From assembly GCF_963855985.1 (NCBI RefSeq), contig NC_087098.1:11614501-11678500 (forward strand): a stretch of 64,000 nucleotides of DNA, read 5' to 3'. The position numbers and the translations under genes were made by a program. The notes beneath the pieces are model-generated. The model worked only from the letters and a program-made list of their open reading frames with translations. It ran no database searches and had not been told where the DNA came from. Of the stretch, positions 1,679 through 39,184 are shown piece after piece. Position 1 is the stretch's first letter. Every line of letters begins with the position of its first letter. Source of the DNA: Ostrinia nubilalis. Its lineage: Eukaryota; Arthropoda; Insecta; Lepidoptera; Crambidae.

Positions 1679-2210
1679 GGGAGTCAATTCTGCTACATCA
1701 GTTGGGTGAAGTGATCTCTAACCACTTCGCGGTTCCTCGAAACGTGGTTTCTTGGGCATTTCTGTGTTAAGCCGCGAGCGGCTTCTCGGCTTGATTAGGA
1801 TTGAGGGTTAACCTCATCCGTCCTCCTCGGGGTGCGCGCGAATGTACCCGGACTATTCGTCGGCGCGGGCGGGGGAGAATTAGGGCAGCTCTACCCCATC
1901 ACTACTTAACTGTGTAGCAACGGACTCCCCGTTCGAAGTCCAAATCCAACTGTATATATACTGAGCGGGATCAAAAACTTCGTCACCGCGATTCAGGATT
2001 TGTACGGAAAAAAAGACAATGCGACCTAAAAAAAATCGTTGATGCTTTTTTTATTTGTCCGTATAGTACAAATGTTATGGCCAGTATTTAATATTGGAAT
2101 TTAATTTGATGAGCATTGATAATATCGTGTTATTTATGATTATTTTTGTTTGATGTGACATTCTTAGGGCGAGATAAAAGGAACAACGCCATCGCTTGGC
2201 AACTTAGGGA
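1679..2210 (+). repeat. MHR copy a (multi-hairpin repeat)
   Basis: Best single example of the family layout. A arm at 1679-1712 (GGGAGTC..GCTACATCAGT), H1 hairpin at 1871-1897 (GGGG..CCCC), B arm at 1905-1930 (ACTGTGTAGCAACGGACTCC), C box at 1969-1997 (CTTCGTCACCGCGATTCAGG) and D box at 2177-2210 (CAACGCCATCGCTTGGCAAC). A and B are reverse complements over GGGAGTC and over the GCTACA..CAGT core, so they can close one long basal stem around H1. No reading frame is shared with other copies. Class unknown: structured RNA gene relic or foldback transposon. Confidence 0.75.
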
Positions 2211-2808
2211 ACGAATGATGCTAATATTACAATGATAACGCTTTTGGCACAGTACTTATTTTGTTTCAATAGATCAATCGCTTCGTTTTTAGGTCTTTAG
2301 CCGTATATAACGCAAACTGTGTGCTATAATTTATTTACACCAATTTTTTATTCTTTCAATGAGTGAAAATGTTAAATTAAACAAATTGAGATTCCTACAG
2401 TTCCTGAAATTACCTAATTAATTTTTTAGACCTTGCGCAAACTCAGATTACAGAACAAATAAAGGTATTGAATCGTTTTCAGTTTGCTAATGAAATATTA
2501 ATTTTTTGAAAAAAATTAATTTGATTGCCCTAAGCTCTGGTTTGTAAAAAAAGGTAAATAATGTCTTTCATAAATAAGTATGGCAGCGCCATCACCCGTG
2601 CCCCTACGGAACTAAACAGCTGATCTCTACAAATACAATAGTGCAGCGTGACGACACAAGGCTGGGCGTGGTAAGGGCTATTCTTTGGGCAGCTGTGAAC
2701 GGCAAGTTTGAACTCTATACCGTCGTATTTGGGGTCTTTTCAGTGATTTTGGATTGACTTATTCAGAACACATTCAATTCAAATCCTACTATCCTACTTC
2801 CTACTAAT
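2211..2808. other. Unassigned AT-rich DNA
   Basis: No convincing gene, tRNA or terminal repeat was seen. The right end holds short iterations of ATCCTACT that run into the Helitron head at 2809. Confidence 0.5.
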
Positions 2809-2976
2809 ATTATAAATGCGAACGTTTGGATGTCTGGATGTTTGTTACTCTTTCACGCAAAAACTACTAAAAGGATTTTGATGAAACTTTACTGTATTAT
2901 TGTTTATAACCCAGAATAACATATAGGCTATAATTTATGACGATCTGTGACAAACGAAGCCGCGGGCAAAAGCTAG
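2809..2976 (+). mobile_element. Helitron-like non-autonomous element (Lep1 type)
   Basis: It starts TCCTACTAATATTATAAATG and ends GCCGCGGGCAAAAGCTAG followed by T. TC at the 5' end, a GC-rich segment just before CTAG at the 3' end, and a T after it are the rolling-circle Helitron signature; this head is typical of lepidopteran Lep1 elements. At about 168 bp it has no coding capacity. The exact 5' end is uncertain because TCCTACT is repeated just upstream. Confidence 0.75.
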
Positions 2977-3227
2977 TACTTTCATATAACATCTTTTACT
3001 ACTCTACAATCATGTTTCATAAGCAATTTCATTTTTTTTAATAAAAAAAACCTACTATGGGCAACAGGCAGCAAAAATAGATTTATTTTCATCAGAAATT
3101 ATATCAAAACATGTAAACAAATGTATCCTGAATTCCTGAACAATATAAACAACGAGCAATAAAAATCTAATGAGGAAAGGAAAAGAAAAACAAACGACGA
3201 TTTGTTCCGCGGTTATACCAAAAGGCA

Positions 3228-3547
3228 AAAGGGAATCCCTCTCTACTCAATGTAACTAGTGAGTACCTACCAGTGATGTACTTAGTGTACTGGTAATTAG
3301 TGTTATTGACTTTTTACTTTTTCAAGCCACTGACCACTGAACATGGACATCAAGATTTTAAAGCCAAGAGGCGTCGTGTAGCGAACACGATAGTCTGGGC
3401 CTAGAACTATAGTGTCGCGAATGGGACAGAGATGTGATTACTCTGCCCCTTTCGCCGTTCCAATGAGTAAAGATGGATTCCCAACAGTATGAAAAAACCA
3501 AATGTAATACAAAGACAGAAAAAAAACTTTGTCACCGCGATGCAGAA
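3228..3547 (+). repeat. MHR copy b
   Basis: A arm at 3228-3255 (GGGAATCCCTCTCTACTCAA) mirrors the B arm at 3457-3484 almost perfectly (reverse complement GGGAATCCATCTTTACTCAT). H1 is GGGACAGAG at 3423-3431 with CTCTGCCCC at 3441-3449. H2 pairs GCGAACACGATAGT with ACTATAGTGTCGC. The C box is at 3520-3547. The D box is not recognisable because unrelated sequence follows. Confidence 0.75.
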
Positions 3548-3660
3548 CCTCTTAAAATCAAATTAGCATTATGACCTATAATGTAATATCCACGGACTTC
3601 GGTTGTCTCACACATATTTTTCACGTTTCTTGTCGTCTGTTCGAAAATAAATATTTTATG

Positions 3661-3735
3661 CATCATTACAGCCTCAGGGCGTCCACTGCTGAACATAGGC
3701 CTCCCCCAATGATTTCCACATCGCCATCCGAATAA
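3661..3735 (-). mobile_element. RTE-clade retrotransposon, 3' end fragment
   Basis: The plus strand carries GTCCACTGCTGAACATAGGC followed by CTCCCCCAATG, the complement of the last codons of the RTE-type frame read in full at 34447-34782 (ending ..VQQWTSYG). A short ATCATTA piece stands in for the usual trinucleotide tail. Heavily 5'-truncated, as non-LTR copies usually are. Confidence 0.65.
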
Positions 3736-4038: not shown

Positions 4039-6378
4039 TCAAAATTTCTTATTACAATGTCTCATATTAAGAAAGTCCTTTACCCTATAAAAATTCATGT
4101 CACTTAGCCATATTATAAGCGACCTTTTGAATCTTGCATTTGGTAGGTTTTTGATATGGTTCGGGATACAATTGTATATCTTAACACACATGGCATCACA
4201 CTGATCAAGATAATGTTTAAGTTTAGGTAAGCTATCATATACTAGATGACTAGGATCTCTAACATTGAAGTTTACAACATCTTTTCGCTTTTTGAATAAA
4301 TTAATATTATTTCTCACAAACAAAGCTACCTCAAGGATGTACAGACAAGGTAGGGGCAATATTTGTAGCTTTCTAAAGACAGGCTCACAGGATTGACGAG
4401 GGGACATACCACAAATTGCCCTTACGCATTTTTTTTGCGCTTTAAATAATAAATTCATGTCAGTAGAATTTCCCCAAACCAAAAGTCCATACCTCAGAAT
4501 TGAGCCGACATATCCATGATATGCTGCAAGACAAGCATTCAAGGTAGATGTGTAGCGCAGTCTTCTCAGAACAAATACATAACGGTTTAATTTATCCCGT
4601 AATGCTCCTATTTGTTGCTTCCAGCCACAGTTATCATCTATGATAACGCCCAAAAATTTAGTACTATCTGCTTCTTGAATGTCTATATCATTATAATGTA
4701 TATTAAGTTTTTGTTTAGTCTGTCTATTTGTCCCAAATTGTATAAAATTAGTTTTGTTTAAATTTACTGTTAAATTGTTATCATTTAGCCATGTTATTAT
4801 TTTGTCAATTGTACCATTTATGTCAGTTTCATGTTCCTCCGACTTTTTTGTGGACGGGATTACTACCGAAACATCATCTGCAAAAAGTGTACATCTATGA
4901 TTTGTTACGTCAGGAAGGTCGTTTATGTAAAGGATAAAAAGTAGAGGTCCCAAAACACTACCTTGCGGAACACCGCATGCATTCTCTAAAAACTGTGATC
5001 TGTTATTTATTACAATGTTATTTTTATCTAAGCTAGTGATTTCAACTGCCTGCTTTCTATTCCGCAAGTAAGATTCTAACCAACTTCGAGCCAAACCCCG
5101 CACTCCCATGTTTTCCAATTTAAGAAGCAGTAGGTCGTGGGAAACAAAATCAAAAGCTCGTGTCATATCAAAAAATACCGTTGTTGTGGGTATTCCAGCA
5201 TTTATATTCCTGTTTATTTCACGCAACAGATGAAACATGGCAAGAGTTGTAGAGCTATTTGCCTGGAATCCAAATTGCTCATTCTTTAGTATGCCAAATT
5301 TGGAGATATAGCTAAGCAATCTGACTTTCATGGCCTTCTCGAAGATTTTTGACAAAACCGGCACTAGTGTTATAGGACGATAGTTTTCTAGCAATGTTTT
5401 TTCTCCTTTTTTATAGATAGGCCTAACAATCGACAATTTTAACAATTCAGGAAAGCAACCAGTCTCAAAAGATAAATTTATCAGATGAGTGAGTGGCATA
5501 GCAAGTTCATCGTTGCAATGTTTAATTACTTTTGTAGAGATTCCATCATAACCAGTTGCATTTGTATTACTAAGAGATTTGATTATAGTTTTTATTTCGC
5601 TAACTGTGTATGGTTCCAGGAATATACTATTATTTAAACGAATTTTATTTGTGTTTTTAAGTGTCTTCTTTTCATTTGTTAATTTTATTAAGTAATTGTT
5701 AAACTCATCGGCTATTCGAATTGGATTTTTAATTGTTTTGTTATTTATTGTTATATTGTCAATTATAATGTCATTTGATAATTGGTTAGTTTCATTTTTA
5801 ATAATTTTCCATGTTATTTTACATTTGTTTTTAGCTTTATTTATTAGCTTCTGATTGTATATTTTTTGAGACAGACTAAAGCATTTACGAAGCAGTTTTG
5901 AATAGATTCTATATTGTTGCTTTTTGTTTGTTGATTTAGATTTATAGTATTCATATCTTAATTTTCTTTTAGTTTGGCAACTTTTTCTTAGTCCTTTAGT
6001 TATCCAAGATGGTTTTTTATATTTGCAGATTAATTTAACTTTTTTCATTGGAAAACTTAAATCATACATGGTTTTCAGAATGCCATGAAATGATAGCATT
6101 GCTTTATCCATATCAGTCATATTTACAATATCAGAGAATGATAAACATTTCAAGTGATCTCTAAATTTATTTAAATTTTCAAAACTATAGTCTCTCATAT
6201 TTATATAACATAGGACTGATTTTTCGTGCTTATATTGTACTGGTATATGCAACATTTGTGATGTATTATGGTCAGATAGATACAAATGATGTAATTCAGC
6301 AAAGGCGTCGTCAATATTGCTAATTAAGTGGTCAATACAGGATTTTAGCCTGGTTGGTTCAGTTATGTGTAATGTCAA
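4039..6378 (-). pseudogene. Reverse transcriptase part of ORF2, 779 codons
   Basis: This is the C-terminal part of a non-LTR ORF2 polyprotein, which would copy its own RNA at a nicked target. Visible motifs: SDH near residues 35-37 (last catalytic His region of the endonuclease), YDGIS near 278, YRPITLVPVLSK near 334, VFFDMTRAFDFVSH near 401-414 (first catalytic Asp), GVPQGSVLGPLLF near 468-480 and FADD near 499-502 (about 4872-4883). The C-terminal tail is basic, as in CR1/Jockey elements. The first codon of the open stretch is TTG, and the same frame stays open upstream to about 6421, so the true protein began in the preceding endonuclease segment. All RT motifs look intact; only the join to the endonuclease is broken. 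Confidence 0.9.
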
Positions 6379-6409
6379 ATTATAATTTTTAACTATGTCG
6401 ATAAGATAT

Positions 6410-6979
6410 TTAGTACCTACTATTTGATAATTTACAAGTATCGATATTTAAATCTCCGGCTAGTATTATCTTGGTCCTAGGATTTTTAATATATTTATGT
6501 AAAATGTCATCTAAGCATACCAAAAAAGAATTTACGTTTGAGTCTGGGGTTCTATATAAACAAATAATATAAATATTGTATCCTAAAAGTTTAATACCAC
6601 AACACTCAAAGGTTTTATCTTGTGATATTTGTTTGATATCAGTTATCTCATTAAACTTAAGTCCCTTTCTAATCATTATACATACACCTCCTCTATTTTT
6701 ACCACTTTTCCTACAATACGCCGATGCAATGTTATAACCAGTTAGGTTTAAACAGCTTTCACTGCCAACCCTCACAAAAGTTTCAGAGAAGCACATAATG
6801 TCAGGTTTTTTGCCTGTTTCATTCAACTCTGTTAAAGCTACTTCTAATATATCCCGCTTTGAGAAAAATCCCGCAATGTTCTGATGTAGCAATTTAAGAA
6901 AGGAATGTCCGTTAGTCTCGAAAAAAATTCTCAACCCTTTTTTCTCCCTCTGTGGATGGACTCTTGTTTCGGTTGTCAA
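6410..6979 (-). pseudogene. AP-endonuclease part of ORF2, frameshifted
   Basis: N-terminal part of the same ORF2. The apurinic-like endonuclease motifs are present: QNIAG (Asn), FSETF (Glu), GGVCIMI, LYRTP and AGDLNID (Asp-x-Asn). The frame then meets a stop 8 codons after the Asp motif. One extra base (or two lost) near 6421-6425 would explain this, since the adjacent frame continues straight into the 779-codon segment that carries the final SDH motif. The frame overlaps the end of ORF1 by about 68 bases, and no ATG lies at its start, so initiation is unclear; reinitiation or shunting from ORF1 is possible. Confidence 0.85.
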
Positions 6980-8381
6980 GATATATATAATTGTCTAGCA
7001 TATTATATTTGGAAATTTTAGCTATCAATACATTCAGATCAGTAAAAATAGTTTTGTAACAGTGATTCTTTAAGATGCCCTGTGATCCAGTGAACATATC
7101 AGAAGTATATTTTAGGTGTCTATTTGAGTCTAAAATGTAAGCATATTCATATTTCGTATTATCTAAGAACAGTAACCTATTAAACATCTCAATTCGCTGA
7201 TTGAACAAATTCATATGTTCTGAGTATCTAAAAGTAGGCAGACAAATAATGATGTTTGTATGATTAAATTTTTGTAATGTCATTCTTATAAAATTAATAA
7301 TGTCATGATAATTGCGAGTTCTATAGAAATCTGCATCTCCTATAAATATTATACAATAGTCACGAAGAGTAAAATCAACTAACTTAGTATCTAATCCTTT
7401 TAATAACTGTTTTATGTCAACACCTAAACTTCTGTAATGGCATAATTCTGTATGATCAATCATGTTTAATGCATTTTGTAAGATTTTCCCTCGCGTATAA
7501 CTACTCAATAAGCACAGCTTCCTCGCCTCGTTTGGGAGCTGTTCGTCAATGTTGTCTTGAAAACACTCCTGAAGACTTGTTGTTGCTGTTGTGATTTCTT
7601 GAAGTGATTCATGTAATTCATCCGCTTCATTCTGAACAAATTCCTTCCGCTTGCTGCTGTCCTTCAGTTTATTTGTGGACTTGTGTCTTTTTTTCAAGCT
7701 GCTTATATTTTTACACTGTGGTGATGTTGTTGTACATAATTGTTTCAAATTTTCTATGCTTAGCTTGTAATCAGTAATTTGTTTCTTTAAAGCTGAGTTT
7801 TCCAGTAATAACTCCTCAATATGACTGTTTGCACTATCCAATTTAATTTGCAGTTCTGTATTTTTGTCTTCCATTTCCTTCAAATCTTCCCTCAAATTAA
7901 TTGTTATTTCCGGGCAGCTTCTATTTTGCCTTTCTGGCTGCGATACCATGGATTCCTCTTCTTCAATCTCCGATTCAGCAGGTTCAGAAAGTGACTCAAA
8001 ACTGTTTTGAACAGGTACATTAAAAATGCTCTCGTCACTTTTATGTGGAGTTGAGTTCGTTAAACCAGAGGATGACGGGCTCAAGATGTTGGGCAATAGT
8101 TGTGCCTTGCCTGGTTTCGTCTTGGAGCAAATTGATGGCTTCACCGTAGATTTTTTATTTTTCTTCTTCAGGCACGTATTGCACTTCCATTGTGTTTTCT
8201 TTTCGCTAGTCATTAATTGGTACAATTTTTCTGACATCCCTGCACAATCAAAATCATACCTTTTTTGGCATAAGTTACACAAAATAGTGCCTCTTAGTTC
8301 GACTATAGATTTACATTTGTCACAGATAATTTTTGATGTTTTTTGGGTCCTTTTCATTCGTTGCGTCATATTTGTTGCCAT
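6912..8381 (-). CDS. ORF1 protein with PHD-like finger and coiled coil, 489 aa
   Basis: ORF1 of the non-LTR element, expected to bind element RNA. It starts at a true ATG. Residues 20-70 hold a PHD-like zinc finger: Cys20, Cys23, Cys35, Cys38, Cys46, Cys67 and Cys70 with Trp65 before the last pair. The position normally His in PHD fingers (two residues before the fifth Cys spacing, YHxxC) is Asp43, so metal binding may be altered. Residues about 165-215 have a leucine heptad pattern typical of a coiled coil. The C-terminal part (IIFIGDADF, IIICLPTFRYSEHM) resembles the esterase-like domains of CR1-type ORF1 proteins, but no catalytic triad can be assigned by eye. The frame is intact over 489 codons. 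Confidence 0.8.
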   Translation of the reverse strand: MATNMTQRMKRTQKTSKIICDKCKSIVELRGTILCNLCQKRYDFDCAGMSEKLYQLMTSEKKTQWKCNTCLKKKNKKSTVKPSICSKTKPGKAQLLPNILSPSSSGLTNSTPHKSDESIFNVPVQNSFESLSEPAESEIEEEESMVSQPERQNRSCPEITINLREDLKEMEDKNTELQIKLDSANSHIEELLLENSALKKQITDYKLSIENLKQLCTTTSPQCKNISSLKKRHKSTNKLKDSSKRKEFVQNEADELHESLQEITTATTSLQECFQDNIDEQLPNEARKLCLLSSYTRGKILQNALNMIDHTELCHYRSLGVDIKQLLKGLDTKLVDFTLRDYCIIFIGDADFYRTRNYHDIINFIRMTLQKFNHTNIIICLPTFRYSEHMNLFNQRIEMFNRLLFLDNTKYEYAYILDSNRHLKYTSDMFTGSQGILKNHCYKTIFTDLNVLIAKISKYNMLDNYIYLDNRNKSPSTEGEKRVENFFRD

Positions 8382-9318: not shown

Positions 9319-9870
9319 AAAAGGAAATCACGTCTTCTACAACATTGGAAGCTTAGTCATTACCAGTGTACCAGTTTATTGTGTTAACTAAGGCTTTAGG
9401 CTATACCGCACATTGAAGGTCAATGAGGCCCCATTGACTTCGAGTGATGACCATTGAGAATGGTCATCAGATTTTGACACCAAGAGGCGTCAGATTGCGA
9501 ACACAATAGTCTGGGCCTAGAACTACTGCGTCGCGAATGGGACAGAGATACGAATAAGCTCTGTCCCGCTTACTACTCCAATGAGTAGAGACGGATTCCC
9601 GAAAGTACGACCAAGTCAAATGTATTTATACAAAGTCGGAAAAAAAACTTTGTCACCGCGATGTAGAGACCGCACACAAAATTGGTGAAAACATTATTTT
9701 AAGAATTTAATACAGACTGGATTGTTTGAGAATATTCTTAGGTGGATAGTTCTTTTGTATATTTTTATTTTGAATTGAAAATATACCTGTATATTACAAA
9801 ACTATAGTAAAATATTACTTAAAGCACTTGTTTGAGCAAGGACAACGCCATCCTTTGACAACTCACAGAA
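9319..9870 (+). repeat. MHR copy c (array unit 1)
   Basis: A arm 9319-9350, H1 GGGACAGAG 9539-9547 with CTCTGTCCC 9559-9567, B arm 9574-9601, C box 9641-9667, D box 9836-9870. The A arm begins GGAAATC, so one outer pair with the B arm (GGATTCCC) is lost here. H2 has ACTACTG where units 2-5 have ACTATTG, costing one further pair. Confidence 0.8.
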
Positions 9871-10388: not shown

Positions 10389-10980
10389 AAAGGGAATCGC
10401 GTCTTCCACACCACTGGAACTTAGTGAGATAACCTAGTGTTTAATCCAGTGATTTAATGTAGTTTTAAGTCGGTAGGTTAGTACATTGCACAGTTTAGGG
10501 GTCAAGCCAGTACCCGTGAGAGTCAATCGGCCCCATTGACTCTCTTGAGAAAGACTCTTGGTTGAGAATCTTTCAAATTTTGACACCAAGAGGCGTCAGA
10601 TTGCGAGCACAATAGTCTGGGCCTGGAACTATTGCGTCGCGAATGGGACAGAGATACGAATAAGCTCTGTCCCGCTCACCGCTCCAACGAGTAGAGACGG
10701 ATTCCCGAAAGTACGACCAAGTCAAATGCATTTATACAAAGTCGGAAAAAAAACTTCGTCACCGCGATGTAGAGACCGCCCAAAAAATGTATAAAAACAT
10801 TATTTTAAGAACTTAATACAGACTGGGTTGTTTGACAATATTCTTAGGTGGGTAGTTCTTTTGTATATTTTTATTTTTAATTGAAAATATACCTGTATAT
10901 TCAAAAAATATAGTAAAATATTACTCTAAGCATTTGTTTGAGCAAGGACAACGCCATCCCTTGACAACTCACAGAACTAG
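10389..10980 (+). repeat. MHR copy d (array unit 2)
   Basis: A arm 10389-10415 (GGGAATCGCGTCTTCCACAC), H1 GGGACAGAG 10645-10653 with CTCTGTCCC 10665-10673 (nine perfect pairs), B arm 10682-10707 (GTAGAGACGGATTCCC), C box 10745-10772, D box 10941-10980. H2 pairs CAATAGT with ACTATTG around the loop CTGGGCCTGGA. Confidence 0.85.
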
Positions 10981-11269
10981 AGTTGCACCCCTCTACATTA
11001 GGAGATCTACTACACAAAACTTTTGGTTTATTGTTTTCGTCTGTCTCGCTCTTATTCCGGGCATCCTAGAGAGAGTGAAAAAGACGGATAGAACCGAACA
11101 TAATGTTATCGTCTTCGGACCAAACCCCTAGGTACGTAGTAGAGTTTGTTAGATAACGTCCCAATGTAGACATTTCTCATGAAGCATTATGAACCGCAAA
11201 TGACTGTTTATTAGCGTCATTTTTATTTTTATGACGAGTTTCAATCTCAAGTTTATTATTTACCTGGCC

Positions 11270-11350
11270 ATGGTTAGCGTAGCGACCTAGCGGGTTACAA
11301 TGTCAATTGCGGTTACGTATTCGAATCGCACCAATGGCAAATGTTACAGC
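11270..11350 (+). repeat. tRNA-like segment in array unit 2
   Basis: Diverged version of the unit 1 segment, with CATGGTTAGCGTAGCG as A-box-like and TTACGTATTCGAATCGCACC as B-box-like sequence. Confidence 0.45.
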
Positions 11351-11479
11351 ACGAGAAGTTCTTTATTATGAAATTGAAAGAAATAAATAATACATTATGC
11401 TATACATACCTAGAGTACCTACTAACCTTAATTACAAATTAAACAATATTTTGTATTCGTTTATTTTTGCGGCTAAAAA

Positions 11480-12070
11480 CAAAAAGGGAATCGCGTCTTC
11501 CACACCACTGGAACTTAGTGAGAACCTAGTGTTTAATCCAGTGATATAATGTAGTTTTAAGTCGGTAGGTTAGTACATTGCACAGTTTAGGGGTCAAGCC
11601 AGTACCGGTGAGAGTCAATCGGCCCCATTGACTCTCTTGAGAAAGACTCTTGGTTGAGAATCTTTCAAATTTTGACACCAAGAGGCGTCAGATTGCGAGC
11701 ACAATAGTCTGGGCCTGGAACTATTGCGTCGCGAATGGGACAGAGATACGAATACGCTCTGTCCCGTTCACCGCTCCAACGAGTAGAGACGGATTCCCGA
11801 AGGTACGACCAAGTCAAATGCATTTATACAAAGTCGGAAAAAAAACTTTGTCACCGCGATGTAGAGACCGCTCACAAAATTGGTGAAAACAGTATTTTAA
11901 GAACTTAGTACAGACTGGATTATTTGAGAATATTCTTAGGTGGGTAGTTCTCTTGTATATTTTTATTTTTAATTGAAAATATACCTGTATATTCAAAAAA
12001 TATAATAAAATATTACTTAAAGCACTTGTTTGAGTAAGGACAACGCCATCCCTTGACAACTCACAGAACT
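11480..12070 (+). repeat. MHR copy e (array unit 3)
   Basis: A arm 11480-11511, H1 11737-11745 with 11757-11765, B arm 11775-11800, C box 11838-11863, D box 12036-12070. The H1 loop has one change from copy d (AATACG for AATAAG); the nine stem pairs are untouched. Confidence 0.85.
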
Positions 12071-12352
12071 AGAGTTGCACCCCTCTACATTAGGGGATCT
12101 ACTACACAAAACTTTTGGTTTATTGTTTTCGTCTGTCTCGCTCTTATTCCGGGCATCCTAGAGAGAGTTAAAAAGACGGCTAAAACCGAACATAATTTTA
12201 TCGTCTTCGGACCAACCCCCAGGCCACGTGGTAGAGTTTGTTAGAAACGTCCCATTGAAGAGATTTCTCACGAAGCATTATGAGCCGTAAATGACTGTTT
12301 ATTAGTATCATTTTTATTTTTATGACGAGTTTCAGTCTTTAGTATTATTTGG

Positions 12353-12440
12353 ACAGCCGCCTGGCCTGTTGGTTAGCGTAGCGGGTTACAATGTCAGCTG
12401 CGGTTACGTATTCAAATCGCACCAAGGGCAAATGTTACAG
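12353..12440 (+). repeat. tRNA-like segment in array unit 3
   Basis: CCTGGCCTGTTGGTTAGCG and TTACGTATTCAAATCGCACC. The B-box-like part has lost the TTCGA core (TTCAA), so pol III promoter function is unlikely. Confidence 0.45.
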
Positions 12441-12478
12441 CAGAAGAAGTTATACTTGCTTCACTTCTTTATTATGAA

Positions 12479-12713
12479 AGTAACTTTCCGCCCGCGACTT
12501 TGCCCGCGTGGAATTTTGTCTGTCACAGAAAAAACTTTATGTCGCGCGTCCCTGTTTCAAAAACCGGGATAAAAACTATCCTGAGTCCTTTCTCGAGACT
12601 CAAACTATCTCTATGCCAAATTTTATTAAAATCGGTTCAGTGGTTTAGGCGTGAAAGCAAGACAGACAGATAGAGTTACTTTCGCATTTACAATATTAAT
12701 TATAGAGTATAGA
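12479..12713 (-). mobile_element. Helitron-like element (Lep1 type) in array unit 3
   Basis: Read on the minus strand it starts TCTATACTCTATAATTAATA and contains GTAAATGCGAAAG, then ACCGATTTTAATAAAATTTG, and ends in the GC-rich block CCACGCGGGCAAAGTCGCGG. The final CTAG has decayed to AGTT. Non-coding. The same insertion at the equivalent site in the next unit shows that it preceded the duplication. Confidence 0.7.
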
Positions 12714-12809
12714 TTATAATATTTAAACTATTTATTTTACATCTTTTAAAACGGTCAGCAAATATAAATACGACTCAATCTGTTCTCATTAATTATTGCG
12801 GCTAAAAAC

Positions 12810-13405
12810 AAAAAGGGAATCGCGTCTTCCACACCACTGGAACTTAGTGAGAACCTAGTGTTTAACCCAGTGATATAATGTAGTTTTAAGTCGGTAGGTT
12901 AGTACATTGCACAGTTTAGGGGTCAAGCCTGTACCCGTGAGAGTCAATCGGCCCCATTGACTCTCTTGAGAAAGACTCTTGGTTGAGAATCTTTCAAATT
13001 TTGACACCAAGAGGCGTCAGATTGCGAGCACAATAGTCTGGGCCTGGAACTATTGCGTCGCGAATGGGACAGAGATACGAATAAGCTCTGTCCCGCTCAC
13101 CGCTCCAACGAGTAGAGACGGATTCCCGAAGGTACGTCGTACGACCAAGTCAAATGCATTTATACAAAGTCGGAAAAAAAACTTTGTCACCGCGATGTAG
13201 AGACCGCATACAAAATTGGTGAAAACATTATTTTAAGAACTTAATACAGACTGGGTTGTTTGACAATATTCTTAGGTGGGTAGTTCTTTTGTATATTTTT
13301 ATTTTTAATTGAAAATATACCTGTATATTCAAAAAATGTAATAAAATATTACTTAAAGTACTTGTTTGAGTAAGGACAACGCCATCCCTTGACAACTCAC
13401 AGAAC
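12810..13405 (+). repeat. MHR copy f (array unit 4)
   Basis: A arm 12810-12840, H1 13066-13074 with 13086-13094, B arm 13103-13130, C box 13170-13200, D box 13372-13405. A small duplication (GGTACGTCGTACGACC) after the B arm is unique to this copy and lies outside the stems. Confidence 0.85.
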
Positions 13406-13689
13406 TAGAGTTGCACCCCTCTACATTAGGGGATCTACTACACAAAACTTTTGGTTTATTGTTTTCGTCTGTCTCGCTCTTATTCCGGGCATCCTAGAGA
13501 GAGTGAAAAAGACGGATAGAACCGAACATAATTTTTATTGTCTTCGGACCAACCCCCAGGCCACGTGGTAGAGTTTGTTAGAAACGTCCCATTGAAGAGA
13601 TTTCTCACGAAGCATTATGAGCCGTAAATGACTGTTTATTAGTATCATTTTTATTTTTATGACGAGTTTCAGTCTTTAGTATTATTTGG

Positions 13690-13775
13690 ACAGCCGCCTG
13701 GCCTGTTGGTTAGCGTAGCGGGTTACAATGTCAGCTGCGGTTACGTATTCAAATCGCACCAAGGGCAAATGTTAC
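13690..13775 (+). repeat. tRNA-like segment in array unit 4
   Basis: Practically identical to the segment in unit 3, including the lost TTCGA core, which supports recent duplication of units 3 and 4. Confidence 0.45.
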
Positions 13776-13816
13776 AGCAGAAGAAGTTATACTTGCTTCA
13801 CTTCTTTATTATGAAA

Positions 13817-14048
13817 GTAACTTTCCGCCCGCGACTTCGCCCGCGTGGAATTTTGTCTGTCACAGAAAAAACTTTATCTCGCGCGTCCCTGTTTCAAAAA
13901 CCGGGATAAAAACTATCCTGAGTCCTTTCTCGAGACTCAAACTATCTCTATGCCAAATTTTATTAAAATCGGTTCAGTGGTTTAGGCGTGAAAGCAAGAC
14001 ACAGATAGAGTTACTTTCGCATTTACAATATTAATTATAGAGTATAGA
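13817..14048 (-). mobile_element. Helitron-like element in array unit 4
   Basis: Same insertion as at 12479-12713, differing by a few substitutions and a small deletion (GACAGACAGA reduced to GACACAGA). It marks the age order of the array: insertion first, then duplication of the unit. Confidence 0.7.
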
Positions 14049-14146: not shown

Positions 14147-14740
14147 AAAGGGAATCGCGTCGTCCACACCACTGGAACTTAGTGAGAACCTAGTGTTTAA
14201 TCCAGTGATTTAATGTAGTTGTAAGTCGGTAGGTTAGTCCACATTGCACAGTTTAGGGGTAAGCCGGTACCCGTGAGAGTCAATCGGCCCCATTGACTCT
14301 CTTGAGAAAGACTCTTGGTTGAGAATCTTTCAAATTTTGACACCAAGAGGCGTCAGATTGCGAGCACAATAGTCTGGGCCTGGAACTATTGCGTCGCGAA
14401 TGGGACAGAGATACGAATAAGCTCTGTCCCGCTCACCGCTCCAACGAGTAGAGACGGATTCCCGAAGGTACGACCAAGTCAAATGCATTTATACAAAGTC
14501 GGAAAAAAAACTTTGTCACCGCGATGTAGGGTCCGCACACAAAATTGACAAAATTACTACCTTTGATGACTTCTTACTAAAAGTATTTCTATAGAATCCT
14601 CTTAAATTCATGATCAGATTGTAATAATAATATTTTTCATCAAAATTTAATCAGTAAAATGGGTATATAGTCAAATATATTTCGATGTAACATGCAAAAG
14701 CAAGGGCAACGCCATCCCTTGACAAATCATAGAACTAGAA
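14147..14740 (+). repeat. MHR copy g (array unit 5)
   Basis: A arm 14147-14175, H1 14402-14410 with 14422-14430, B arm 14438-14465, C box 14503-14528, D box 14700-14740 (CAACGCCATCCCTTGACAAA). Between the C and D boxes the sequence is unrelated to units 1-4, yet the boxes and their spacing persist. Confidence 0.8.
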
Positions 14741-16020: not shown

Positions 16021-16490
16021 AAAAGGGGGTCAAATCTTCTACATCAGTGTAATTTACTTATTCATTTATTGATCAAGTTTACATCACAGATTCGCTTCCC
16101 GTTAATGAGATTTCTAATAAGACTGATTTACTTAGAAGTAAGTGCAGGATATTTGGTGAGGACAGAATTCAGAACTGTTGTGTCCATATTACCACTGTAT
16201 AGCTAACTGTGTGGAAACGGACCCCCAACAGTACGTATACAGCTGGCGTATATAAACTGAACCAGATTAAAAACTTCAATATCGAGATGCATGATTTTAG
16301 TATAAAACGCTACGATTAAATGCAAGGGGATTGTAATACTACAAGTTTTTAATATCGAATAGCGATTATATTCACACTGTAGGTAATTTTATGTGAATAT
16401 CAGAGCTCTATATATTTTTTTTACTATATTTTCCAGCTGACGGCCTTAAAGTAAAGGCACAGCGCCATCGCTTGACAATCGAAGGAACTA
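16021..16490 (+). repeat. MHR copy h
   Basis: A arm at 16021-16050 begins GGGGGTC and the B arm at 16205-16227 ends GGACCCCC, a third matched state of the outer stem. The core pairs TCTACATCAG with CTGTGTGGA. The C box is degenerate (CTTCAATATCGAGATGCATG, about 16272-16292), and the D box is clear at 16456-16490 (CAGCGCCATCGCTTGACAAT). H1 is not recognisable. Confidence 0.7.
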
Positions 16491-17332: not shown

Positions 17333-17520
17333 CAAGGGAGTCCGATGCTACTACACAGTGAAGCAGTGGTGGGGCAGCGCTGTTCTGACTTTGCCCTAGT
17401 CGCCGCGCGCTGTTGGATGTTGTGACTTCTTTCTGCGCGCGCAGACTGTGATTCTCTCAGGCGCCTTATGAAGCGCTCGCGATTGATGCCTATCTCTGTA
17501 CTGTTGGTAGGGCCCAAAAG
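17333..17520 (-). repeat. MHR copy i, truncated
   Basis: B arm at 17335-17360 (GGGAGTCCGATGCTACTACA on the plus strand), H1 at about 17370-17397 (GGGGCAG..TTGCCCT) and a GC-rich H2 segment (17400-17450, GCGCGC on both sides). The A arm is missing: a non-LTR 3' end takes over after about 17520. Confidence 0.7.
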
Positions 17521-18694: not shown

Positions 18695-19135
18695 GATCAA
18701 GGGATGGCGGTGTTGCTTCACTAAAAGCAGATGTTTTTAGTATTGTCTAGATAGACTGTACAAAATGGGCTTACAAAAATTATTAATGTTTAGAAATATG
18801 TACTAACACTTAACACAGAAATTAAACCCATAATATCGCAGTTTAACTTAAGCCTGGCTACGTTTTGGATACGTTACCTACATCGCGGTATCAACATTTT
18901 TTTTTGGGCTCAGTATAAATGGTTGCGTTATCGACGTGTACTTGGGAGTCCGTTTCTACACAGGCAAAAAGGAACTGACTACTAACTTACTCACTAGTGG
19001 ACACAAATCAACTTAACCTGTCCTATGAATATTTATATGACTAGTACTAGTATTAGGAATATTAGGAACTTAAGTGTAAAAACCCAAATGCAGACTGATA
19101 ACTTACTGATGTAGAAGATTTGACTCCCTTTTTTA
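18695..19135 (-). repeat. MHR copy j
   Basis: D box at 18695-18720 (plus strand CAAGGGATGGCGGTGTTGC), C box at 18877-18907 (CATCGCGGTATCAAC), B arm at 18944-18965 (GGGAGTCCGTTTCTACACAG) and A arm at 19104-19135 (CTGATGTAGAAGATTTGACT). Both arms carry TTCTACA where copies a, k and l carry GCTACA, a matched change inside the basal stem. Confidence 0.75.
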
Positions 19136-20008: not shown

Positions 20009-20296
20009 AAAAGGAGTCAAAGCTGCTACATCAGTGGGGTGAAGCGAAGTTCACTTCCTCGTTTGCGGTTAAGCAAGGATTAGAACGGGCTTAATTTCAA
20101 TCGCGAGCACCGTGTGAGGTGTCTGAAAGAATCTGGGCACAGCTCGAGGCCTAGGCTCGAGGCGACTGGGGCAGAATCAGAACAGCGCTGCCCCCGCCAC
20201 TGCTCCACTGTGTAGCAACGGACTCCCTGACTGTGAACTTAGCATACTTGTATTATATAACAAGCAGGACCAAAAACTTTGTCATCGCGATGCAGG
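20009..20296 (+). repeat. MHR copy k (array 2, unit 1)
   Basis: A arm 20009-20040, H1 GGGGCAG 20168-20174 with CTGCCCC 20188-20194, B arm 20203-20226, C box 20270-20296 (TTTGTCATCGCGATGCAGG). The H2 position holds CTCGAGGCCTAGGCTCGAG, different in sequence from other copies yet still self-complementary. A D-like CATCGCTTG follows near 20366. Confidence 0.85.
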
Positions 20297-21859: not shown

Positions 21860-22204
21860 AAAAGGAGTCAAAGCTGCTACATCAGTGGGGTGAAGCGAAG
21901 TTCACTTCTTCGTGTGCGGTGAAGCAACGATTAGGTCGGGCTTAGTTTCAATCGCGAGCACCGTGTGAGGTGTCTGAAAGATTCGGGGTACGGCACGAGG
22001 CCAGAGAGACGCATGCGGCGTCGGAGTCGGCGCGCGCAGCGAGTGTCCCCCCATGCAGCCACTGCGCGGCGACTGGGGCAGAATCTGAACAGCGCTGCCC
22101 CACCCACTGCTCCACTGTGTAGCAACGGACTCCCTGACTGTGAACCTAGCATACTTGTATATATAACAAGCAGGGCCTAAAACTTTGTCATCGCGATGCA
22201 GGCA
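21860..22204 (+). repeat. MHR copy l (array 2, unit 2)
   Basis: A arm 21860-21892, H1 GGGGCAG 22075-22081 with CTGCCCC 22095-22101, B arm 22110-22134, C box 22177-22202. The stretch 22005-22070 is GC-rich with two more self-complementary patches: GACGCATGCGGCGTC, and GCGCAGCGAGTG with CACTGCGC. The GC-rich patch stands out sharply against AT-rich flanks. Confidence 0.85.
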
Positions 22205-23835: not shown

Positions 23836-24170
23836 AAAGGAGTCAAAGTGGGGTGAAGCGAAGTTCACTTCTTCGTGTGCGGTGAAGCAACGATTAGGTC
23901 GGGCTTAGTTTCAATCGCGAGCACCGTGTGAGGTGTCTGAAAGATTCGGGGTACCTACGGCACGAGGCCAGAGCGACGCTTGAGGCGTCGGAGTCGGCGC
24001 GCGCAGCGAGTGTCCCCCCATGCAGCCACTGCGCGGCGACTGGGGCAGAATCTGAACAGCGCTGCCCCCGCCACTGCTCCACTGTGTAGCAACGGACTCC
24101 CTGACTGTGATCCTAGCATACTTGTATATATAACAAGCAGGACCAAAAACTTTGTCATCGCGATGCAGGC
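23836..24170 (+). repeat. MHR copy m (array 2, unit 3)
   Basis: H1 GGGGCAG 24042-24048 with CTGCCCC 24062-24068, B arm 24078-24102, C box 24144-24170. The A arm lacks its middle (no GCTACATCAG), so only the outer GGAGTC pairs remain. The inner patch GACGCTTGAGGCGTC keeps its five pairs although its loop differs from copy l. Confidence 0.8.
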
Positions 24171-25364: not shown

Positions 25365-25870
25365 ACAATTGATGGCGCTGTCCCCTAAAATGAGGCCTTA
25401 TAATTTTGATGCATCTCATTTATTTAAAAAATTAAGACGTATTTTAGATTTTTTTCTAACACTAACGCTCAAACATAATGACTGATCGATATTAAATAAT
25501 TTAAAACAAAGAAAAGTTAACTGCTTTGAGCAAAACACTTTAAAAATAAAATATTGCCAAAACTATGCACACCATTCCTGCATCGCGGTGACAAAGTTTT
25601 TTTTCTTGTTTGGAACATATACGGTTGACTTGGTTCAACAGTCAGGGAGTCCGTTGCTACACAGTGAAGCAGTGGATAGGGCAGCGCTGTTCTGATACTG
25701 CCCCGGTCTCTACTAGGTCGATGCTTGGAGGGCCATCGCACCACGTTCAGATCCCGGCGCTATACGTTGGAAACTCAGATTGGCCGCGTGCTAACTCATT
25801 CAGATGACTCATTCTTGAGGAAAGAAGGACAACTTCACCCCACTGATGTAGCAAATTTGACTTCCTTTTT
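25365..25870 (-). repeat. MHR copy n
   Basis: D box at about 25368-25395 (GACAATTGATGGCGCTGTCC), C box 25576-25602 (CATCGCGGTGACAAAG), B arm 25644-25675 (GGGAGTCCGTTGCTACACAG), H1 GGGCAG at 25679-25684 with CTGCCC at 25698-25703, A arm 25833-25870 (CACTGATGTAGCAAATTTGA). All modules are present, in order, on the minus strand. Confidence 0.8.
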
Positions 25871-25947: not shown

Positions 25948-26085
25948 CAAGAAAATGCGTCTACTACTTTAGTCGTTAATGTTATTATGTATGCAGTGTC
26001 GGAGGAACAACGCTGCCTCTGCCGCTGTTCGACCATGTAGTAATAACGGAGACGGACTCCCCGAAAGTGTACTAAATTACCAAAA
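25948..26085 (+). repeat. MHR copy o, degenerate
   Basis: An A-like stretch (GCGTCTACTAC, about 25957) and a B-like stretch (CATGTAGTAATAACGGAGAC then GGACTCCCC, ending about 26063) flank a short core with AACAACGCTGCCTCTGCC. No C box was found. It may be a badly decayed copy. Confidence 0.4.
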
Positions 26086-26695: not shown

Positions 26696-26960
26696 CTCAA
26701 TCGCGATATTGAAGTTTTATTCCCAGCTTGTTTTAAATAGGGTCGTTGTGGCTTCAAAGCCGGGGAGTCCGTTGCTACACAGTACAGCAGTGGTGGGGCA
26801 GCGCTGTTCTAATACTGCCCCGGCCAACGCGCAGTAGCAGTGAGTTGTCATCTCACTGCGCGCATGTTCATTACTGATAATATTAATAACCATAATGGTA
26901 GCAATCATGGAGCCCTGCTCCAAATACAACTGGAGTTGCAAATTTGACTCCCTTTTTGAT
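26696..26960 (-). repeat. MHR copy p
   Basis: C box 26698-26722 (TCGCGATATTGAAG), B arm 26762-26792, H1 GGGGCAG 26795-26801 with CTGCCCC 26815-26821, A arm 26933-26958 (TTGCAAATTTGACTCCC). H2 is clear: GCGCAG then GTGAG, loop TTGTCAT, then CTCACTGCGC. The A arm lacks the CACTGATGTA part. Confidence 0.8.
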
Positions 26961-28005: not shown

Positions 28006-28483
28006 CAGATGGCGCTGTATTATAAACTGAGCCATTTTAGAATAGGACAGTAAAGTGTATTTTTTATGTATTATTAAAAGATTTTGCTTTAAAATTGTTT
28101 CACTACGTTAACGTTAATTAATTGTTATTTAATTGATAAAAAAAGCATGACAGAGGAAGAAATATTTCTGATACTAGTACATTTTGCATACCAAACCTGC
28201 ATCGCGGTGACGAAGTTTTTATCCATGCTGGTTATATAAATTGTGATTTAGAGACTCGTTCGGGAGTCCGTTGCTACACAGTGAAGCAGTGGTGACGGCA
28301 GCGCTGTTCTAACACTGCCCTAGTCGCCGCGTAGTAGATGTTTGGGGGGACATCTCACTGCGTGCGCTGATTTTGATACCTCGTCGAGCGTGTCACTAAC
28401 CACCCTTTGTATTGCACAGTCAATGGTCTAACAAAGTGCTTGCACTTGCCCCACTGAAGTAGCAAATTTGACTTCCTTTTTGT
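28006..28483 (-). repeat. MHR copy q
   Basis: D box about 28006-28030 (CAGATGGCGCTGTA), C box 28196-28222 (CATCGCGGTGACGAAG), B arm 28262-28292, H1 about 28297-28320 (GGCAG..CTGCC), A arm 28446-28483 (CACTGAAGTAGCAAATTTGA). H2 pairs AGATGT with ACATCT where copy p pairs GTGAG with CTCAC: different sequence, same position and shape. Confidence 0.8.
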
Positions 28484-29429: not shown

Positions 29430-29824
29430 AACCTGAATCGCGATATCAAAGTTTTTTTTCCAGTTTAGTATAAGATACAGCCAATACAGTGCTAAAGTGG
29501 GGAGTCCAGTGTACCATATTGTAGATTACAGTAAAGCAGTGGTTGGGTAGAGCTGCCCTAATTCTGCCCTGCAGCGTAGCGGTGGCCTTCGGAGTTCGTC
29601 CTCAGAAGACACTGCTGCGTTGCGCCCCGACGCGTCGCGCTGCGTGCGTCGCGTCGGTCCGACGGCCAAACGCCTCACCTCATCGGCCTGCGCCGCGCCG
29701 TGTCCGATCCGACATAAATGTCGTTCTCCTCCGTTGCTGTGAATCGTAACGTAACGTGTAAACGTGTAAATCTTACGTCTTTCCAGCTGTTAACTGAAGT
29801 CGCCCTGTGTCTCCCTTTTTTGTT
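29430..29824 (-). repeat. MHR copy r
   Basis: C box 29430-29461 (AATCGCGATATCAAAG), B arm about 29499-29550 enlarged by an insertion, H1 about 29548-29572 (GGGTAGAG..CTGCCC, using an alternative pairing), A-like end CTCCCTTTTTT at about 29810-29820. The internal region 29575-29720 is very GC-rich and self-complementary: GCAGCGTAGCGGTG pairs with CACTGCTGCGTTGC. A 68-codon Arg/Ala-rich frame here is a by-product of this composition. Confidence 0.65.
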
Positions 29825-35590: not shown

Positions 35591-35594
35591 TACC

Positions 35595-35667
35595 GGGGGC
35601 GTAGCTCAGATGGTAGAGCGCTCGCTTAGCATGCGAGAGGTACCGGGATCGATACCCGGCGCCTCCA
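35595..35667 (+). tRNA. tRNA-Ala (AGC)
   Basis: 73 bases folding to a full cloverleaf. The acceptor stem GGGGGCG pairs with CGCCTCC (one G-U). The D arm is GCTCAGATGGTAGAGC, and the anticodon arm CTCGC, loop TTAGCAT, GCGAG gives anticodon AGC. The T arm is CCGGG, loop ATCGATA, CCCGG, and the discriminator is A. CCA is not encoded, as in eukaryotic nuclear genes. A loose T-rich terminator (TTTTGTTTT) follows at about 35689. All stems are intact, so the gene is probably functional. Confidence 0.95.
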
Positions 35668-36319: not shown

Positions 36320-36321
36320 AC

Positions 36322-36487: not shown

Positions 36488-36559
36488 AGTGGGACTACAG
36501 GCGGTTGCAACTGTCACTTCAAAGTCACAAAATTATCTTCAAGCAGGTTAATTAACCCT

Positions 36560-37425
36560 TTGAATGCAATTAACAAAACGCACTAGTTGTCATGCATGCT
36601 GCGTCGCCGCCAAGATTTCACGGGAAGTTTTTGTGTGGTCCTACGTGGGTGATTGTTTCGAAATTAAGTATGTAATTATAGTAATCAGTGTTAATTGTGT
36701 CCGAGGGGACAGGTGACGCCGAACAATGCCTCATTGTAGACCCTTTGTTACTTGAATAATTGTTTAAACTGTCTCGTTAGCCAGTATTGCCAGCTGAGCT
36801 ATTAAATATTTTCCACTGCAATTTTTACACGAAGAAAAATTATGCTATGAATTTAATTTAAAAAAATATATCTGCCCAGTTTTTTAAGTTATTTATGGCG
36901 ATTGCTGGTTACTCAGCTTGTGGATTTGAAATCTTGTTGTAATGAGCCAAATCTAATTTATTATTTAATCACACATACGTTTCACTTTGTTTTGGTATCA
37001 AAATGTACTGGAGATGTAGTTATTATGCCTACTTTTATTTTATTTTACACATTGACATGCACGCGAGTCGCTGGCAGGTTAAACATTGTTCATTGTCTGC
37101 CGCTATTTTAAAAAATAAAACGGCTTTTTGTTTTAAAATCTGGCAACCCTGTCACAGCCATGGCATGGGTTGTGGCATGGGCGTGCCTTGAACGGCTGCT
37201 TTTTGTTTAGCCTCGCATATAATGACTTCCGTTAGCCGTTTAGGAATAAAGACACCAATTAATAATTGTTAAGGTATAGTCCGCGCCAATAGACTCCGGC
37301 AATTTCGTAAATATGAGATGTGAGATTGAATTTAACAACAAATCAAAAGAAATAAACCATTTGGTATCAAATCATTTATTATTATCATTATTATCAAATT
37401 CAATGTTATTCGACTTAAACTTACA
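36560..37425. other. Unassigned DNA
   Basis: Overlapping short plus-strand frames (36902-37191) are not family-like. No repeat edges recognised. Confidence 0.4.
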
Positions 37426-37427
37426 TT

Positions 37428-37515
37428 TGGTGTGATGGTTGCGAAGTTGGCTACTACTAAGTGCTACTTCAGAGATAGCAAGTTCGATACTCGGCTCTCG
37501 CTTCATACAAAAAAT
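37428..37515 (+). repeat. Possible tRNA-derived SINE head
   Basis: TGGTGTGATGGTTGCGAAG resembles an A box, and AGCAAGTTCGATACTCGG a weakened B box 50 bases later. An ACGTACGTGCGTACGT stretch and TAAATAAAT follow at 37543-37568. Not matched elsewhere in the window. Confidence 0.45.
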
Positions 37516-37569
37516 AGTGTGCATGATTATTTTATATGTTTCTTACGTACGTGCGTACGTATAAATAAA

Positions 37570-38850
37570 TCTCGTAGTATTTAATTAAAATGTTTTATCC
37601 GATATCCGACACTAAATCATGTTCAGTAAGATATAGGCCGTCAAGAAGCTCAAAAGAAAGCTAGTAGAATAAAACAAAATTAGAAGATTATTCTAATTGA
37701 TTTATTACATATTCTTTGTAGTGTCTTAAGTCCTCTTGAGTTGAATACCTTAGTGCCTGCCGTAATAGCTGATCTAGTTCCAATTCTAATATCTAATGGG
37801 GTTTAAATTTAGTGCACAAAGTGCCAGCGACGATAGATGGCGGATTCCCTAGCCGCCACCGAAATACCAACGGTCGATGCACTGGCAGGTATAGTTGGCA
37901 GCAAAAATGTAAGAGATCTTGGTCTGCCTCGTCCGTAATACATGGTCATTATTTTTGGGTCTTCTTTTTTGCTGTAGTAGTAGTAGTCTTGACGGTATTT
38001 CGCTTTCTGAAAGAGAAGGGAAGCTTAGGTATGCTAAGTTTAGAAGTTAGAAGAAGTTGAGTGAAAAGAATAGAACAATCCAAATTAATGAAGACTGGGT
38101 TGGGGTGATGAATTAATCCTATGAACTATGAACGCTGTCTCGACTTATGTCTGTAGTAGCTACGAGTACGGTTTACAATAAATGTAAAAAATGTTATGCA
38201 AATATGCATGCTTTTTCTGTGTACAATTCAATTCAGCGACTTGGGCCGTGGGCCAAGTCTTTGGAAGACTCACGAAAAACATTGAAAGGAATGGAACCAT
38301 CCATCCATAGTAGCAAGAAAATGAAAATAAATAAAAAAATACAATTTAAAACTGAAATCCAGTAACATACCTACTTACTACGGCGAGACCAACTTGCATT
38401 TTTTTTACGGCATGCAGCTTTTTTTACGGTCTTTGTGGCCACCAATTTTACCAGCCGACTGTCCAAATGTATTTGAAGCGGCGCGCGCGCAATTAGGTAG
38501 CCATTACACGATCGATCGCCGTGCTAATTATATTACCTGCCCCGAGTGCCACTCGTACGATTTATACAAATCTGCGTACGTTTGCAAAAAAGAGTATTTA
38601 AACATTTTAAACTACGATAATAAGCGTATCAACAGGTAGTGGGAAATAATTTTCTTGAACGAGCCGGCTCGATAATCAAGCCGAGTGTAAAAATTAATTA
38701 AATAAAACCTTCCATACCAAATGTCAATTTAAACTAATTTTAATGCAAAAGTTTTATTAATAAAAAAAACCTACGAGCTACGACTTAATGCAAAAATAAA
38801 AATAATAATATCACAATTTCACAATTTGTCAACTAAAAAAAAATTAACGT
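37570..38850. other. Unassigned DNA
   Basis: Frames of 70-80 codons at 37812, 38147 and 38394 (plus) resemble no protein family I know. No terminal repeats recognised. Confidence 0.4.
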
Positions 38851-39184
38851 AAAAGGGTGGAGTCAAATGAACTACATCAGTTCTGGGAGGCGCTCCGCCT
38901 CGAGTCGGTGAAACTAGGTTTCCAAGTTTTGCTAGGCGAGATCATGAATCCCGCGGCAGAGGACTGGTGAGACCGCGTGCCGTGTGCCGGTCTTTTGAAG
39001 CCCTGGCGTGTATAAAGACGGATCAGCGACTGCAACAGTTTGCACCCCCTGCCTTAGCGGAGGGCGGAATAAAAGCAGCTCCGCACCTAGTTGCTTTACT
39101 GTGTAGAAACGGACTCCGAAGCGATGGTTGTAGCGAAAAGATATATTGTACGCGGCCGCTAAAACTTCGATACCGCGATGCAGG
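38851..39184 (+). repeat. MHR copy s, the outlying copy
   Basis: A arm 38851-38887 (GGAGTC..ACTACATCAG), H1 GCGGA at 39064-39068 with TCCGC at 39080-39084 (sequence unlike other copies, pairing kept), B arm 39096-39117 (ACTGTGTAGAAACGGACTCC), C box 39160-39184 (CTTCGATACCGCGATGCAGG). It lies 9 kb from the next copy, and none was found downstream. Confidence 0.75.

Follow-up and report, generated by a model that had tools for sequence, protein, structure and literature searches.

Clustered candidate genes for an undescribed structured RNA with a U6-type Pol III promoter in the moth Ostrinia nubilalis

Introduction

To our knowledge, discoveries of new Pol III RNA families are rare in animals. 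One known RNA of this class is the arthropod 7SK, about 300 nt long. In Drosophila, the distance from the PSE to the TATA box is 12 bp in U6 and 8 bp in the Pol II snRNA genes (PMC4227766). Y RNAs and stem-bulge RNAs (sbRNA), whose Ro60 site is described in PMC4726728, are gene families of Pol III RNAs with a closed lower stem containing an unpaired C and a variable interior. For Lepidoptera, a telomerase-RNA-like snRNA with a type 3 promoter has been proposed in PMC9841428, which sets the minimum template at 6-7 nt.

A 39-kb stretch of a chromosome of the moth Ostrinia nubilalis, lying in the window of 64,000 nt that was analysed, is predicted from its sequence to be a cluster of small structured RNA genes. 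The copies resemble U6 genes in the sequence and place of the PSE, in the TATA box and its spacing, in an upstream GATGGCG and in the T-run at the end, whereas the RNA bodies are unrelated: the U6 matches are 107 nt long and lie on four contigs, and the copies are clustered and 185-316 nt long. The likeness to arthropod 7SK (RF01052) lies in being a predicted Pol III RNA of similar length, and that model has no match to the cluster RNAs. Its sole match in the genome (contig C7, 45.1 bits with the cut-off at 44) has no PSE at up to seven mismatches in the surrounding 3.3 kb; this score and the missing PSE make the match itself doubtful.

At the gathering score, Rfam returned only tRNA from the whole window and no match to the copies; at E≤5 nothing was found in positions 1600-29600. 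Queried singly, c14 gave three chance-level lncRNA matches (E 4.7-9.8) and c4 none. No description of the family turned up in a search of the open literature.

Results

The window contains 16 near-complete copies, a 17th (c18) and two partial ones, 19 in total, which agrees with the count of about 19 in a preliminary description of this DNA. In that description the copies were read on the wrong strand. The elements that it named are real, but their order (A, B, H2, H1, C, D) becomes D, C, B, H1, H2, A, because the copies are read on the opposite strand. The C and D boxes had been taken as parts of the RNA; they are instead promoter elements (C the PSE, D a distal element), and the 3' end of the RNA is formed by A. 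The plan of the gene is then the D box, the C box, a TATA box near -30, the RNA start in arm B (GGGAGTCC), H1, H2, arm A and a T-run.

On the minus strand are located c1 (1679..1929, 251 nt), the subfamily B members c2 (3231..3482, 252 nt) and c3 (9323..9600, 278 nt), and the tandem units of the same subfamily, c4 (10392..10706, 315 nt), c5 (11486..11798, 313 nt), c6 (12815..13127, 313 nt, with PSE and TATA box 7 nt further upstream) and c7 (14150..14463, 314 nt). These are followed on that strand by c8 (16025..16226, 202 nt, with the GGGGGTC/GACCCCC stem), c11 (20012..20227, 216 nt), c12 (21863..22134, 272 nt), c13 (23838..24101, 264 nt, 3' arm in part deleted) and c19 (38858..39118, 261 nt, terminator displaced, ACCCTTTT). 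The plus strand carries c10 (18944..19128, 185 nt), c14 (25645..25865, 221 nt), c16 (26763..26952, 190 nt), c17 (28262..28476, 215 nt) and the near-complete c18 (29500..29815), which has an imperfect basal stem and is followed by TTTTTT. The partial copies are c9 (17336..17399, plus strand, E 9.7e-9), a 5' domain with no recognisable promoter and no visible 3' arm, and the weak c15 (26005..26064, minus strand, E 0.48). Copies c9, c13, c15, c18 and c19 are damaged or weak. The tandem duplications of c4-c7 and c11-c13 include the flanks.

In the window, the C box has 16 matches at up to two mismatches against 1.56 expected, two of which (14892 and 37151) are not copies, and the D box has 13 at up to three mismatches against 1.84 expected. 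The PSE of c1, 21 nt long, occupies 1974..1994 on the minus strand at -65. The others start at 3543, 9664, 10770, 11862, 13198, 14527, 16290, 20293, 22199, 24166 and 39181 on the minus strand, and at 18880, 25580, 26698, 28199 and 29435 on the plus strand. The PSE begins between -63 and -66 in 14 of the 16 near-complete copies, at -61 in c2 and at -71 in c6. An exact TATA-like match is present in 12/16 copies (in c1 at 1953..1960, minus strand, from -31; in c6 at -37) and absent from c2, c14, c16 and c19. In all 12 the gap between the PSE, taken as the 21 nt delimited by the analyst, and the TATA box is 12-13 bp. The distal GATGGCG, the core of the D box, lies within the expected zone in 11/16 copies, at -241 to -274 (c1, 2187..2193, minus strand; further starts at 3728, 9852, 10958, 12050, 13386, 14716 and 16469 on the minus strand and at 18703, 25371 and 28008 on the plus strand), and is absent from that zone in c11, c12, c13, c16 and c19.

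At least seven U6 loci were found in the genome, six of them full, and the comparisons use those six. Their PSE lies at -65 in every case, and TATATA is found at -31/-29 in five genes and at -29 in the remaining one (L050). GATGGCG is mostly closer in U6 than in the cluster copies, at -117/-118 in five full genes and at -253 in one. The consensus PSEs of U6 and of the copies agree in 18 of 21 columns. When the consensus is built from the U6 genes alone and up to five mismatches are allowed, it matches 18 sites in the window, 17 of which are the C boxes of copies. The same promoter module was also seen in unrelated dispersed elements, including LTR-like and poly-A elements; the module alone is therefore no proof of a host RNA gene.

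Directly after the 3' arm, T4-6 is found in 15/16 copies (c1, 1674..1678, minus strand), and T4 or longer at the opposite end in none of the 16; TTTT occurs within 6 nt at about 4% of window positions. Inside the copies, the RNA strand has two T4 runs, in c17 and c19, against a shuffle mean of 9.5 (1 of 300 shuffles as low), and the other strand has 15 runs in eight copies (shuffle mean 13.7). With 11 representatives only, the count is two against a mean of 5.9, and 12 of 300 shuffles are as low. The non-Watson-Crick cells of the outer stem are, on the RNA strand, G-U in six cases, which correspond to about four events on the tree, and A-C in one. Fold energies do not discriminate between the strands. 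The plus strand as RNA was rejected, since promoter, terminator, internal T-runs and G-U pairs all point the opposite way. Transcription out of the C box in the direction of the D box, with a TATA box about 30 nt ahead of C, was also set aside, because the module runs in the other direction in U6 genes. The copies have the attributes of U6-type (type 3) Pol III genes, namely a PSE at its distance, a TATA box near -30 and a T-run with no earlier one. Since their promoter is of the same kind as that of the moth's own U6 genes, they have the appearance of genuine RNA genes and not of a folded transposon.

The outer stems are those already described (GGGAGTC/GACTCCC, GGGAATC/GATTCCC and GGGGGTC/GACCCCC), with 7/7 pairs in 15 of 16 copies and 6/7 in c19. 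H1 and the core stems are likewise as described in most copies, with the exception of c10, which has no clear H1. In a structure drawn by the analyst after the copies were seen, 93.4% of the cells of basal stem and H1 are paired. The figure for shuffles is 87.7%, with none of 500 coming up to 93.4%, and pairing falls to 30-51% when the register is slid. Both sides have changed in 7 of the 22 pairs. The repeats, the pairing of their arms and the matched stem changes reported earlier are real. Read on the tree by the analyst, the independent double changes are about six. This is a small number of events behind the covariation, smaller than a set of 19 copies would lead one to expect. The alignments left out c9, c15 and c18. 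MAFFT sets the H1 of c8 one column off register, which lowers the pairing count of that copy; the regular expression for H1 missed c1, c8, c10, c17 and c19, all five of which were kept in later counts. Model R1, in which five RNAalifold pairs were judged spurious, acts as a sequence profile. Over 60 shuffles, c8 and c13 fold hardly better than the shuffled sequences (z -0.96 and -1.36).

The middle domains of the older pairs are no closer to each other (0.71-0.76) than distant flanks aligned with gaps (0.68-0.75), and the arms fall to 0.57-0.66 between distant subfamilies.

Discussion

The gene anatomy, the promoter in common with U6 and the conserved pairing are observed directly. Judged from sequence, the stretch very probably holds a cluster of about 20 genes, damaged copies included, that encode an undescribed structured RNA, 185-316 nt in length, under a U6-type Pol III promoter. 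The copies are rated as a putative RNA family that is new, whereas the type of its promoter is known. Against this reading speak the distal GATGGCG, which lies farther off than in five of the six U6 genes and is missing from five copies, the four copies lacking an exact TATA-like match, the similarity values of middles and arms, the weak folds of c8 and c13, the damaged copies and the presence of the promoter module in unrelated elements.

The alternative that survives best, though unlikely, is a non-functional repeat, in which an RNA gene, or an element carrying the promoter, has multiplied and left copies that are now mostly pseudogenes. Several copies are damaged, and the module does occur in the LTR-like and poly-A elements. 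On the other hand, PSE, TATA box, arms and T-run keep a fixed spacing despite diverged middles and flanks, and the compensated pairs likewise speak against it.

Kinship with Y RNAs or sbRNAs is less likely still. On this view Ro60 would bind a lower stem of 7 bp in which a bulged C faces a second bulge, and the loop domain above it would have grown. The copies do have a 7-bp helix followed by C8, as at the Ro60 site, and at least 18 sbRNA genes, their Pol III promoters putative, are present in C. elegans (PMC4726728). In the predicted folds, the exact 1-nt bulge with 3 nt opposite is seen in c11 and c12 (2/16) and a 2x4 loop in c1, c8, c10, c14, c16 and c17 (6/16), but neither form in c2-c7, c13 and c19 (8/16). 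The UUAUC loop motif is present in 1 of 17 copies, human Y RNAs measure 83-112 nt (PMC4030889) against 185-316 nt here, and Rfam gave no Y RNA match. An exon-by-exon search of the genome for TROVE/Ro60 gave no match and no first-look candidate; its control gave a match in 1 of 14 genomes, a bacterium, so that an intron-split gene may have escaped it.

A foldback or other DNA transposon, with inverted arms diverged by subfamily, is very improbable. Inverted terminal arms, many copies and both orientations would suit it. However, the conserved blocks run on beyond arm B as a U6-type promoter, the T-run stands at a single end, the c4-c7 and c11-c13 duplications carry their flanks, and a BLAST search of the 495-Mb genome with c14 as query returns this cluster and one other locus, a lower bound because the cluster's own distant subfamilies were missed. 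The earlier preference for a structured ncRNA over a foldback transposon is thus supported, on the strength of promoter, terminators, compensated pairs and tandem duplications; its layout was on the wrong strand and wrongly placed C and D in the RNA. The remotest reading is a telomerase RNA or the telomerase-RNA-like snRNA of PMC9841428, with which the copies, compared by description, have the type 3 promoter in common: c4-c7 contain CTAACCTA, a template for TTAGG repeats, and 9/17 copies a 6-nt permutation, but the 8-mer is absent from 13/17, the 6-mers lie at differing places, and the copies are many and divergent.

For the candidate genes, Pol III would be recruited as at the host U6 genes, probably with SNAPc on the PSE, TBP on the TATA box and some factor on the distal GATGGCG. 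The RNA would begin at GGGAGTCC, and its ends would close a basal stem of 7 bp, a small internal loop and a longer stem. H1, H2 and copy-specific hairpins would lie in between, and the U-run after the 3' arm would end the RNA and may bind La. A common protein may then grip the two conserved parts, basal stem and H1, and the middle, which changes fast, could give each copy its own ligand; the resulting RNPs would share one handle but differ inside. The genes multiply through tandem duplication that takes their flanks along. We give an even chance to the wider proposal of an undescribed insect class of Pol III RNA, a multigene family whose U6-type promoter, closing stem and H1 form a fixed frame around a fast-changing interior of copy-specific hairpins, and which would work as RNPs with a common handle. 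A clustered moth family of this design is directly testable, for the genes and their starts, ends and promoters are predicted at single-base resolution. The consensus PSE derived from U6 is, in addition, a means to seek further snRNA-type genes in moth genomes.

Pattern scans of viral and genome contigs gave 4, 23 and 1 places; those of the start motif all lacked a PSE-like or 3'-arm companion, and they are for this reason taken as chance. The plan of the gene is also kept in two copies that lie beyond the window. The first (c0, E 8.9e-18) has an imperfect outer stem and a PSE 64 nt upstream, and a GATGGCG starting at 82 on the minus strand of the window fits it. In the second, on contig C29, an insert of 860 bp with ATTGCGAGT at its flanks separates the promoter from the RNA; if the insert were absent, the PSE would fall at -64 and GATGGCG at -272.

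Gene copies and promoter organization

The boxes and arms reported in the preliminary description are present at the positions it gave, in counts far over the chance expectation. The window contains 16 near-complete copies of the putative RNA gene, a 17th that is nearly complete (c18, 29500-29815, whose slice for sequence comparison is 3 nt short at the end) and two fragments. On the strand opposite to that first described, the order in each copy is GATGGCG (distal element), PSE, TATA, GGGAGTCC or variants, 3' arm and T-run. The PSE occurs in 16/16 copies, GATGGCG in 11, an exact TATA in 12 and the T-run after the 3' arm in 15.

The six full U6 genes of the same genome have a PSE of the same kind at -65, GATGGCG at -117/-118 (five genes) or -253 (one), and TATATA at -31/-29 in five and at -29 in that of stretch L050. 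In a seventh, degenerate U6 the PSE is at -60 and a TATA match is absent. Since these U6 genes carry the same PSE arrangement, the strand and promoter reading of the cluster are settled. The distal GATGGCG of the cluster (-241 to -274) is, however, more remote than that of all but one of the six U6 genes. A PSE consensus derived from U6 only (up to 5 mismatches) is found at 18 places in the 64 kb, 17 of which are cluster genes. T4 runs inside the RNA are avoided on the RNA-gene strand only. The remaining PSE-like site, at 38910 (+), lies inside c19 on the other strand.

Conserved pairing

The structure for the pairing test was drawn by hand after inspection of the copies. In the alignment of 16 copies, 93.4% of 346 cells are paired and both partners have changed in 7 of the 22 pairs, the change at columns 42/78 being confined to c10, a copy without a clear inner hairpin H1. 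None of 500 shuffles was as high as observed for pairing, double-change cells or covariation score. The number of double-changed pairs was matched by 8 of 500, and further pair types (15) were fewer than in the shuffles (18.0). RNAalifold alone recovered the same stems, together with columns 12/345 and part of hairpin H2.

By our reading of a tree built from the promoter and 5' domain, about six events account for the double changes. The 4/355 change is in c8, those at 5/354, 12/345 and 20/336 fall on deep branches, 44/76 changed within subfamily B (c2-c7) with a G-U intermediate in c2, and 46/74 changed in c19. Arms of subfamily B pair weakly with those of other copies (mean -8.7 to -10.4 kcal/mol) and strongly with their own (-24.3 to -29.3), whereas arms of the other subfamilies are largely exchangeable. 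Fold z-scores range from -0.96 to -9.07; in many copies the opposite strand scores almost as well, and energy is therefore uninformative on strand.

Evolution of the copies

Tandem duplications that include flanks are seen in c4-c7 and c11-c13. Between c4 and c7, similarity is 0.96-1.00 in promoter and RNA and goes down to 0.72-0.76 in the upstream flanks, the baseline from distant flanks in the same gapped alignments being 0.68-0.75. Copies c14 and c17 agree at 0.89 in the 5' domain and 0.73 in the middle. The frame is thus conserved while the interior varies. Between distant subfamilies the arms diverge as well, down to 0.57-0.66 (c1 vs c4), yet pairing is retained.

The upstream flanks of c11 and c12 (20012-22134) agree in 0.97-0.98 of aligned columns, and the central hairpin has a large indel, which suggests rapid interior turnover. 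A telomere-template-like 8-mer, CTAACCTA, is present at RNA position about 226 of c4-c7 (10392-14463) and is limited to these four near-identical copies.

Copies outside the window

Copy c0 (L029, 9818-9647) is located just before the window, with a PSE 64 nt upstream, a T-run and one mismatch in the outer stem; by coordinates, the GATGGCG at window position 82 is 264 nt upstream of its start. The RNA of the copy on contig C29 is intact: all 7 bp of its outer stem pair, and CTTTTT follows. An insert of 860 bp, accompanied by a 9-bp duplication, cuts this copy from its promoter. With the insert left out, its PSE would be at -64. This is a natural promoter disruption. The insert (L063, about 5194-6117) lies between TATA and RNA start, with duplication ATTGCGAGT and ends AGGGTTTC...GAAACCCT.

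The family model detected no further copy in the 30 kb before and 20 kb after the window. BLAST of c14 over the genome (495 Mb, 52 contigs) gave 11 matches, all at the cluster or the C29 copy; c0, c2-c8, c10, c15, c18 and c19 escape this search, and distant copies may therefore exist elsewhere.

The promoter module in other elements

The genome contains 311 occurrences of GTCACCGCGATG, versus 56 of the reversed control. In 11 stretches sampled outside the cluster, holding 15 sites, TATATA follows the PSE core by 33 or 36 nt (15/15) and GATGGCG precedes it by 53 nt (13/15). Stretch L032, examined whole, is LTR-like: it has perfect direct repeats of 237 bp (387-623 and 1037-1273; TG...CA ends), a primer-binding-site-like TGGTGACCCCGACGTGA and ACTG on both flanks. 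Within its repeat lie GATGGCG, PSE and TATATA, spaced as in U6 genes. This stretch recurs in L033 (two copies) and L034 (three copies), 638-652 nt apart, and L035 and L038 have a variant form; six further stretches were viewed around the promoter only. In L038 (C11:13478000-13479500) the same promoter precedes a poly-A tract of about 60, which is SINE-like; its body is, by eye, dissimilar to the cluster RNAs. The module occurs in LTR-like and poly-A elements and, consequently, is by itself no proof of a host gene. An LTR carrying an snRNA-type promoter seems unusual, and these elements are of interest in their own right.

Putative function and neighboring features

The cluster copies share their gene anatomy, a promoter common with U6 and conserved pairing. 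Their RNAs would be transcribed by Pol III, bind La and form an RNP. With moderate confidence, we consider that a common protein handle is combined with varied interiors. A Y RNA-like role is attractive given the resemblance of the lower stem, but Ro60, the Y RNA partner, was not found in an exon-by-exon search of the genome, and half of the copies are predicted to fold otherwise.

An Arthropod_7SK match on contig C7 (G000:C7:6040384-6040693) is weak, just above cut-off, with no PSE found near it, and is doubtful as a real 7SK. The window also contains a tRNA-Ala (AGC) gene (35595-35667, +) and three retrotransposon-like frames (4039-8381, -). Moths have reverse transcriptase relatives of the first frame (4039-6378). 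The host itself is a moth: among the best 120 of 3872 relatives of one retrotransposon frame, the species-named entries are all moths (Trichoplusia, Plutella, Loxostege, Ostrinia, Arctia).
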